64,000 bases of DNA. Origin: Paludibacteraceae bacterium. Its GTDB lineage: Bacteria > Bacteroidota > Bacteroidia > Bacteroidales > Paludibacteraceae. The position numbers and the translations under genes were made by a program. The first letter of the stretch is position 1; every line of letters begins with the position of its first letter. Shown here piece by piece: positions 582 through 5,820 of this stretch. The DNA lies in the NCBI GenBank assembly GCA_017551675.1, contig JAFZLC010000007.1:1-64000 (forward strand). Reading direction: 5' to 3'. The notes under the pieces are model-generated. The model was not told where the DNA came from. It searched no databases and worked only from the letters and a program-made list of their open reading frames with translations.

Positions 582-589
582 TATATTTG
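582..589 (+). promoter_or_regulatory. Bacteroidetes -7 box for the small ORF cassette
   Basis: TATATTTG matches the TAnnTTTG -7 consensus. No clear -33 TTTG is present at the usual distance. Transcription would begin near 595 and run straight into the hairpin at 605-658. Confidence 0.5.
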
Positions 590-604
590 CACAAGGGGAA
601 AATA

Positions 605-658
605 AAAACCATCCATGCGATAAAGGCAACTTATATAGTCCTTTTGGTGGATGGTTTT
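605..658 (+). other. Leader hairpin (11-bp perfect inverted repeat)
   Basis: AAAACCATCCA at 605-615 is the exact complement of TGGATGGTTTT at 648-658, with a 32-nt loop. It sits between the predicted start of transcription and the ATG at 702. The T run after the stem is short and broken (ATTTTCTTC), so it could be a weak terminator/attenuator or a protein-binding leader; the sequence does not decide. Confidence 0.5.
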
Positions 659-701
659 ATTTTCTTCTGTAATCAAAATGGGTCATTTAATATTTACGGC
701 T

Positions 702-905
702 ATGGCGACAATAACATTAAATTATAATGGAAGAAACAAGATAGCAAAAGCAATCGTTAAAATGATTGTAGACTCAGGCTTGTTTAGAGTGCTTACAGAT
801 GACGAACCAAACGTAACAACAAAGCGAGCAATAAAAGATGCAAAGGAGGGGAGAACATATAAGGCGGAGAATTTGGATGACCTTGTTAAATATTTAAATT
901 CGTAA
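702..905 (+). CDS. Small antitoxin-like protein (67 aa)
   Basis: Starts at ATG 702 (MATITLNYNGRNKIAK); the in-frame codons further upstream lie in the leader hairpin region and look non-coding. The layout, a short beta-strand/helix start (ITLNYNGRN) followed by an acidic/basic tail ending DAKEGRTYKAENLDDLVKYL, resembles small Bacteroidetes proteins that often sit beside RelE/YafQ-type toxins; this is from memory of the pattern, not a search. It lies 2 nt before the next ORF, so the two are probably co-translated. No toxin gene is recognisable next to it. Alternative: an unrelated small DNA-binding protein. Confidence 0.55.
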   Translation: MATITLNYNGRNKIAKAIVKMIVDSGLFRVLTDDEPNVTTKRAIKDAKEGRTYKAENLDDLVKYLNS

Positions 906-907
906 TT

Positions 908-1045
908 ATGAGAAAATTGGGTGAGTCTAAAACAGAAAAAAACAAAATCACAAAAAGTCCATATAACCCTAATTTTGTGGAAAAAATAAAACGTAGTGCA
1001 AAAAGCAGGGGTAAAGCTATAAAAACAGAAGATTTATGGAAGTGA
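908..1045 (+). CDS. Tiny antitoxin-like protein (45 aa)
   Basis: ATG 908 follows the preceding stop by two bases, so translation is probably coupled. The protein is very basic. Its core SPYNPNFVEKIKRS and end GKAIKTEDLWK match a motif pair I associate with small Bacteroidetes antitoxins that precede a toxin gene; here nothing toxin-like follows. At 45 residues it is too short to hold a separate DNA-binding domain. It may be an orphan, a truncated remnant, or the partner of the 67-residue protein. Confidence 0.5.
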   Translation: MRKLGESKTEKNKITKSPYNPNFVEKIKRSAKSRGKAIKTEDLWK

Positions 1046-1112: not shown

Positions 1113-1253
1113 ATGAGTGCAGAAAATACAAATAATCATGTGAAATTCCTTTCCAAAGCATGTCTAGTTTTGGGAATACCTGCAACCATCTTGGCTGCAT
1201 TCAGAATTAGCTATGGCGCTTTTTATTCTCGGTATTTTTGTTTTTCTACATGA
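1113..1253 (+). CDS. Possible 46-aa hydrophobic peptide or gene remnant
   Basis: An ORF with an ATG at 1113 and a hydrophobic centre (KACLVLGIPATILAAF). The +1 frame continues the hydrophobic character from an ATG at 1213 (MALFILGIFVFLHEI), as if a small membrane protein had been frameshifted. Nothing else supports expression. It may be a decayed relative of the small membrane proteins at 3.0 and 4.7 kb. Confidence 0.2.
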   Translation: MSAENTNNHVKFLSKACLVLGIPATILAAFRISYGAFYSRYFCFST

Positions 1254-4745: not shown

Positions 4746-5120
4746 ATGAATAAGACTTTAAAGGGAATATTAATAGCGTTCGTCATCTATTCAGGATTAA
4801 AGATGAGCGGGTGGGTAATAGCCATTGCTATAGAGACATTCGCAAGGTTGATGGCGTCGCAAAAATCCACTCAGCATTTTGCACCTTTGATAATTTTTAC
4901 AGTTTTGGTGTTTACTTTTTATATTGTTACCATAATCCAGAATGTTCGTGCGTTAGAGGGTAAATTGCAATCCGTGAATTGGTTGATCGCTGCAAATGTG
5001 ATTAGCGTTATATTTAGCATTTTTGCGATTATAAAAATCCATCCATATTTTGCTTTGTTGCTTATTGCCAGTTTGGTATTTGGGGCATTGCTCTTTATAT
5101 ATAAAAATAAGGTTACCTAA
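4746..5120 (+). CDS. Four-helix membrane protein, likely paralogue of the one at 3.0 kb
   Basis: 124 residues with four hydrophobic segments (about 8-30, 46-64, 77-95, 100-117) and a short basic tail (YKNKVT). Spacing of helices and the central loop (NVRALEGKLQSVNWLIAANV) match the protein encoded at 3011-3457. No catalytic motif. Start at ATG 4746 is the only good choice. Function unknown; integral inner-membrane protein is inferred from hydrophobicity only. Confidence 0.7.
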   Translation: MNKTLKGILIAFVIYSGLKMSGWVIAIAIETFARLMASQKSTQHFAPLIIFTVLVFTFYIVTIIQNVRALEGKLQSVNWLIAANVISVIFSIFAIIKIHPYFALLLIASLVFGALLFIYKNKVT

Positions 5121-5166
5121 TACGATTTATACAATTCACAGAAAAAAGATAGAGTAAACAGACATA

Positions 5167-5820
5167 ATGAAAATTATAAGTTATAATATCAATTCATGTA
5201 CACAGTGGAAGGTGGATCGGTTATTCGAAGAGAATGCGGATGTTTATGTCGTCCCTGAAGTAGCAGAGGGAATAAAGATTCCTGATGATTTTGAAATGAA
5301 ATGGATCGGCAAGTATTCATCAAAAGGTCTTGGTGTGATTTGGCGTAAGGAACAGGGCATTGTGCCTGATTGGTATAACGATAAACTATCATATGCCATT
5401 CCGATGATTTATAATGATGTTTTTATTCTAGGATTTTGGCCTACCAAAATTGGAAACGAAACATATACACAAATTGCCAAAGAAATCCTTGAATATTACT
5501 TGAATTACCTTAAAAAGTATGAACAGTGTATTGTGACGGGTGATTTTAATTTGTTTCACAAAAAAGATAATACGAACAAAGCGGCTGATATTCTGAAAGC
5601 AGATGAGTTGTTGAAATCGTGTGGATTGTCAAGCGTGTATCATACTATAACTGCTCAGGCAATGGGGGCTGAATCACAATTTACGTATTATCATCAACGA
5701 CATAGTGATAATCCGTTCTTCTTAGATTATACATATTCAAAGTTGCCTGTGAAGAAATATTCCTTGGAACCGTGGGATAGCAAGATGAGCGACCATGTAT
5801 GCCAGGTAATAGAGATTTAG
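5167..5820 (+). CDS. Endonuclease/exonuclease/phosphatase-fold hydrolase
   Basis: 217 residues, no signal peptide, so cytoplasmic. The order of motifs is that of the EEP superfamily (DNase I, AP endonuclease, inositol phosphatase): SYNIN with Asn7, Glu31 in VVPEV as metal ligand, GDFNLF at 125-130 (Asp126, Asn128), Asp187 in LDYTY, and SDH at 208-210 with the catalytic His. All expected active-site residues are present, so a metal-dependent phosphodiesterase activity is likely; the substrate cannot be read from sequence. It stands among unknown membrane and lipoprotein genes. Shorter than ExoIII-type AP endonucleases (about 260-270). Confidence 0.8.
   Translation: MKIISYNINSCTQWKVDRLFEENADVYVVPEVAEGIKIPDDFEMKWIGKYSSKGLGVIWRKEQGIVPDWYNDKLSYAIPMIYNDVFILGFWPTKIGNETYTQIAKEILEYYLNYLKKYEQCIVTGDFNLFHKKDNTNKAADILKADELLKSCGLSSVYHTITAQAMGAESQFTYYHQRHSDNPFFLDYTYSKLPVKKYSLEPWDSKMSDHVCQVIEI

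Follow-up and report, generated by a model that had tools for sequence, protein, structure and literature searches.

The window analysed here is the 64,000-nucleotide stretch at positions 1 to 64,000 of contig JAFZLC010000007.1, and near its start the following elements were located by inspection of the sequence where the original prediction had placed them: a promoter-like box TATATTTG (582-589), a leader with a perfect 11-bp stem, a 67-residue reading frame (ORF1, 702-905), a gap of 2 nt and a 45-residue reading frame (ORF2, 908-1045), all on the plus strand. The box resembles the -7 box of a Bacteroidetes-type promoter, and the same box is found shortly 5' of the antitoxin start in related loci. 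Since the pattern TAnnTTTG is frequent in the window (61 occurrences on the plus strand and 33 on the minus strand, 94 on both) and no -33 box matching the consensus is seen for it, the box is weak when taken alone.

Downstream of the box, positions 594 to 668 (approximately) are predicted to fold into a stem-loop of 22 pairs with one bulge and an inner stem on top, having a folding energy of -33.6 kcal/mol and a z-score of -3.89, with none of 200 shuffled sequences being equally stable. Its perfect 11-bp core is formed by 605-615 pairing with 648-658. The window contains 7 perfect stems of at least 11 bp with a loop of 3 to 60 nt, where 20 shuffled versions average 0.85, and when the region 502-701 is shuffled, such a stem appears in 5 of 400 trials; the leader stem exceeds chance. 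Moreover, a 52-nt segment of this hairpin (607-658) is copied in a prophage-like contig of a sister species (G015:C12:33481-33532, 98% identity) and in another contig of the same genome (C3:101-155, 95%), the identity to the latter being 84% over 573-658 of the window. The hairpin is present in 2 of 358 genomes of the family, with three copies known, and those outside the window lie at unrelated places, so that it does not accompany the homologous loci in which the original prediction had proposed to look for it. Relative to the leader of the antitoxin gene of G015:C12, the hairpin is extra sequence. Immediately 3' of it, the window reads TTTTATTTTC, whereas both other copies read TTTTTTG, as in an intrinsic terminator; a scan of positions 400-1400 for intrinsic terminators with loops of 3 to 8 nt gave none. 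Searches of Rfam with the whole window and with 500-1120 left the hairpin without a family (the best hit, a microRNA family, had an E value of 0.15, far under the cut-off), and the leader (600-665) had no match in phage and plasmid records or, as a pattern, in IMG/VR. A two-codon reading frame within the hairpin (ATGCGATAA, 615-623) was considered and dropped, its stop codon being missing from both other copies. Also, at about 33.5-33.7 kb of G015:C12 (L071, about 4980-5170, minus strand), a TATATTTG box precedes a putative structured RNA, about 170 nt in length and closed by a long stem, whose last part is the hairpin of the window's leader; this RNA has no convincing match in Rfam.

The first gene, ORF1, joins a conserved N-terminal half (MATITLNYNGRN...) to a tail like those of YafQ partners. 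Its frame is open already from an ATG at 651, yet 15 of 15 aligned relatives begin at MATITL, and its first eight residues agree with the family consensus. The leader directly 5' of this start (686-701) resembles that of the G015:C12 antitoxin, a likeness that is partly A/T-rich and weak alone. The best identity among relatives, 44% over residues 1-53, is to an antitoxin (G002:C91) whose neighbor is a YafQ toxin (Pfam, E 1.6e-28). Also, residues 36-67 are 53% identical to a RelB/DinJ antitoxin from an Acidiphilium plasmid, where YafQ adjoins it (E 0.07), and a comparison with the PDB points to DinJ (E 0.066). No family model, DinJ/RelB included, is above its cut-off for ORF1, and its AlphaFold2 model is poor, with a mean pLDDT of 60.6. 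By this moderate identity and a tail match at E ~0.07, ORF1 would be a full-length antitoxin of the kind (DinJ/RelB-like) that pairs with YafQ. Among its relatives, the N-terminal half is constant, and the tail and the toxin vary, being of the YafQ type at nine loci (L005, L006, L008, L009, which is broken, L011, L013, L016, L017, and L019) and of the YoeB type at three (L007, L018, and L049); at L010, the contig end cuts the locus 278 bases past the match. Thus, ORF1 resembles DinJ/RelB-YafQ type II modules in its tail and in having close relatives that precede YafQ, but differs in that its N-terminal half is of the MATITL type shared with YoeB-type antitoxins and no toxin adjoins it.

ORF2, in turn, matches positions 27-66 of the 66 positions of DUF2683 (PF10884) with an E value of 1.7e-10 and 41.4 bits, above the cut-off of 27, so that only part of the domain is present. 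Profile searches with both peptides, as proposed in the original prediction, were successful for ORF2 and gave nothing above a cut-off for ORF1, and the suspected likeness to Bacteroidetes antitoxins is borne out for both peptides. In its relatives, the ORF2-like segment forms the C-terminus of a protein of ~65 residues that starts with MATITL..YN.RN, whose gene overlaps that of a following YoeB/Txe toxin, and full-length relatives with the MATITL... half and the ORF2-like tail in one gene are found, for example, in G015:C12 (2133-2330) and G004:C12. The YoeB and YafQ identities of the relatives' toxins were confirmed by Pfam. On Flavobacterium plasmids, DUF2683 and Txe/YoeB are annotated as neighbors; in the literature searched, DUF2683 occurs by name only. 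ORF2 retains the invariant Y, V, and W of the family tail, and its end overlaps ATGGAAGTG (1036-1044, plus strand), which in relatives is the start site of the YoeB gene (MEV..) and in the window is followed by unrelated sequence. However, this is weak evidence because the codons for LWK and the stop dictate most of its letters. Judged by sequence, ORF2 is the C-terminal part (YoeB/Txe type) of a longer antitoxin gene and no independent small gene. It is alike to the DUF2683-Txe/YoeB module of the Flavobacterium plasmids and G015:C12 in the C-terminal 40 profile positions, and differs from it in that both the N-terminal half and the toxin are missing.

ORF2 is closest to the tail of the G015:C12 antitoxin, with 69% identity in protein and, as the best DNA match, 83% between 935-1046 and the 3' part of that gene. 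The start of ORF2, MRKLG, aligns with an internal IRKSG of this antitoxin, with ATG in place of ATT, and from the DNA and protein alignments it follows that ORF2 corresponds to that gene minus its first ~24 codons. Moreover, window positions 686-747 are 82% identical to G015:C12:2117-2178, the 5' part of the same gene. Because this 5' similarity is partly family-wide (other loci show 80-93% over 28-46 nt), it does not discriminate between the insertion of a gene and the collapse of two modules.

G015:C12 encodes an integrase, a phage-type repressor, an O/DnaD-like replication protein, a methyltransferase, a lysozyme, and an M15 endolysin; the antitoxin and YoeB sit between integrase and repressor, and the twin of the hairpin lies at 33.5 kb. 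As two independent best matches fall on one phage-like contig, a phage origin is likely, and the locus is probably reshuffled phage-borne toxin-antitoxin material. Direct searches among phages found none with ORF1 and none with ORF2, PADLOC returned no match for either, PHROGs gave no family for ORF2 and just function-unknown ones for ORF1 (best E 3.8e-4), and MATITLNY was not found in IMG/VR. Two routes can be proposed: recombination could have placed a YafQ-type antitoxin midway within a YoeB-type antitoxin gene, or a deletion could have collapsed two adjacent modules, with both toxins gone in either case. Neighboring toxin-antitoxin modules do occur in relatives (L062 and L063). A former internal isoleucine codon of the DUF2683 antitoxin would have become the start codon of ORF2, and the 52-nt hairpin of a related prophage would have landed between the promoter and the start codon. 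On the same contig of the sister species, a second small gene of the MAT.. kind (G015:C12:1751-1960, L073) has a promoter and leader nearly as those of the DUF2683 antitoxin; its relative on contig C3 of the window's own genome precedes a 148-aa ORF, which looks like a PIN toxin and is missing at L073.

No toxin gene follows the pair, as originally claimed: YoeB and YafQ profiles built in this analysis find none in positions 1-2402 of the window (L001), with no toxin adjoining. The YafQ model PF15738, which detects 3 of 3 YafQ toxins of relatives, gave no match in the genome, an absence that is not absolute in an assembly of 58 contigs. The YoeB model PF06769 gave one match, at contig C19, where a DUF2683 antitoxin of its own precedes it; the tail of that antitoxin shares 35% identity with ORF2. 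It could be argued that the toxin is an unrecognised one, either ORF2 itself, which lies 2 nt behind ORF1 with a toxin-like spacing, or the small ORF with a hydrophobic stretch that comes next. Nonetheless, ORF2 is homologous to the tail of an antitoxin and not to a toxin, and the 46-aa ORF, 67 bases further on, matches no family at an E value under 0.15, which makes a functional system of this kind very improbable; the unusual toxin-antitoxin system contemplated at first is left with no toxin candidate. The 46-aa ORF (1113-1253, plus strand) is perhaps a gene fragment, and the sequence 3' of ORF2 (1040-1112) has no repeat within the genome.

By homology to antitoxins of complete pairs with no toxin adjoining, both ORFs are orphan antitoxins, YafQ adjoining a relative of ORF1 (L019) and an intact YoeB adjoining 13 of 23 relatives of ORF2. 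The working definition given in the available part of PMC7192599 (50-150 aa, 75% identity, and 50 aa aligned) is narrower, and neither falls within it, ORF2 having 45 aa, under the 50-aa limit, and a best identity of 69%, and ORF1 having 67 aa and 44%. Orphan antitoxins are already described as abundant in the accessible text of PMC7192599 and PMC11541004, with proposals that they counter the toxins brought by incoming elements or represent decayed pairs (PMC7192599 and PMC12548467, in the portions available). The window is alike to such orphans and anti-addiction modules in its antitoxin genes without a toxin, but it differs from them in placing two specificities side by side, one of them a 45-aa tail without its N-terminal half.

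The anatomy of the locus can be stated with high confidence: two antitoxin genes, rearranged, lacking toxins and probably derived from a phage. That this pair was assembled out of phage-borne toxin-antitoxin material is the reading we favor as rather probable. What is new in the cassette is the presence of two specificities behind one leader with one antitoxin pared to its tail, and this novelty is moderate because orphan antitoxins have been described in large numbers elsewhere. A partial parallel is found in the yefM-yoeB locus of S. pneumoniae, in which, according to the available part of PMC4803016, a dispersed stem-loop, an upstream BOX element that adds a promoter, has likewise entered the regulatory region of a YoeB-type antitoxin gene, the toxin being present. 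In the window, by contrast, the element lies within the putative transcribed leader and has just 3 known copies.

Antitoxins that outlive their toxin are frequent among the relatives of ORF2. In a set of 300 genomes of the family, 24 tails were found, and once the window itself is omitted, the remaining 23 comprise 13 with an intact YoeB adjoining, five with a broken or deleted one, and five with none (L050, L053, L065, L066, and L067); thus, 10 of 23 family relatives are without an intact YoeB. A set of 393 genomes of the order gave 25 rows, from which the window and the C19 locus of its own genome (already in the family set) were omitted; in the 23 further tails, YoeB is intact in 16, partial or frameshifted in three (L097, L108, and L109), absent in three (L096, L100, and L107), and cut by a contig end in one (L117). 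The possibility that an orphan tail serves a toxin elsewhere in the genome was rejected for five of the eight genomes checked for YoeB, in which a toxinless antitoxin coexists with zero copies (G002, G026, G028, and two genomes with the antitoxin at a CRISPR locus, G006 and G082). In the other three, the only YoeB of G004 carries a stop, G015, a toxin-bearing comparison, has two, and G061, for which this possibility was not rejected, has four.

These losses bear on whether the locus is simply a dead remnant of toxin-antitoxin modules, functionless and with frames open by youth alone, a reading to which we give a little less than an even chance. Every step of such a decay is visible in relatives, as an in-frame stop (L049), a deletion leaving a C-terminal scrap (L055), or a truncation (L054, L057, and L068), and in the window ORF2 is truncated, the toxin lost, and the hairpin inserted in the leader. 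Also, the pair is not conserved: behind the 23 relatives of ORF1 (14 from one search and nine rows from another, excluding the window's own genome), a tail-only ORF occurs in none, which is the lack of conserved synteny that the original prediction had named as refuting it. Its orphan or decaying alternatives fit a pair of antitoxins without a toxin; a conserved cassette is not supported. However, both frames are intact and abutting, the consensus start of ORF1 and the invariant residues of ORF2 are preserved, and antitoxins of this family repeatedly outlive their toxins, one even being fused to another gene.

Between ORF2 and the G015 tail (L048), there are 5.5 synonymous differences over 16 sites and 6.5 nonsynonymous over 71 (Fisher p 0.008), but the window branch carries three nonsynonymous and one synonymous change, as expected without constraint, which counts toward decay. 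Past selection on ORF2 is visible and present selection is not, and the low nonsynonymous rate may predate the loss of the toxin.

An antidote function of the ORF1-ORF2 cassette is a tentative reading, somewhat under an even chance. A transcript would start from the box at 582, and the leader hairpin may damp or stabilise it; the N-terminal half of ORF1 would serve for dimerisation, with ORF1 perhaps acting as a repressor of the promoter, and the tails of both proteins could wrap around RNases of the YafQ and YoeB types that arrive with incoming elements, so that expression of the cassette, binding of the toxins and protection would together make a passive anti-addiction antidote. In YefM-YoeB, the toxin is bound by the C-terminal peptide of the antitoxin (PMC4803016, in the part available), which makes a tail-only antidote plausible. 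Counting against it, the resident YoeB already has an antitoxin of its own. If ORF1 was instead retained to regulate transcription from its own promoter or from others, ORF2 would be a passenger; type II antitoxins repress their own promoters, and the accessible text of PMC7192599 proposes that orphans turn regulators. Nonetheless, no operator-like repeat common to the relatives was found and the hairpin interrupts the leader, so this role is quite unlikely.

If the cassette works, it would be a minimal two-specificity antidote, its 45-residue tail being among the smallest natural antitoxins, and the question of orphan antitoxins as immunity or litter would become testable by a simple rescue. 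If not, it offers a clear snapshot of decay, toxin first and antitoxin last, and of the reshuffling of phage toxin-antitoxin cassettes in Bacteroidales. A more general idea, which we regard as unlikely, is that the YoeB-type tail, freed from its N-terminal half and its toxin, has been kept as cheap immunity against plasmid or phage addiction, as a free peptide (ORF2 and a 47-residue ORF in G061), in an acyltransferase fusion (G004), and, its N-terminal half present or absent, in CRISPR-Cas9 loci (G006 and G082). Given these sister cases at CRISPR arrays, a test of the immunity reading would be worthwhile.

In these last cases, from two genera, a cas9-cas1-cas2 locus holds a DUF2683 antitoxin gene, with no toxin, in the interval from cas2 to the CRISPR array (G006:C49, L025 790-993, minus strand, also L123; and G082:C67, L066 1453-1620, plus strand, also L122). 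In G006, the gene occupies a giant 'spacer', its last codons being inside the repeat. The literature searched on orphan and CRISPR-array antitoxins describes CreTA-type RNA antitoxins and no antitoxin protein encoded between cas2 and the array, which is no proof of absence in print. The fusion is found in G004:C4 (L067 415-1605), where a DUF2683 tail is joined to the C-terminus of an acyltransferase (PF01757), with no toxin behind.

Finally, a 36-bp repeat, whose inverted ends read GTTTTTA...TAAAAAC, is present 16 times at 336-8456 of contig C3 of the window's own genome (L072 and L120), and its copies are separated by stretches of 206-1657 bp that contain small genes as well as segments with 98.9% identity to the G015:C12 prophage. 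This series is a cassette array of the CRISPR-, integron- or dif-like kind, and two more copies of the same repeat are found in G004:C21.
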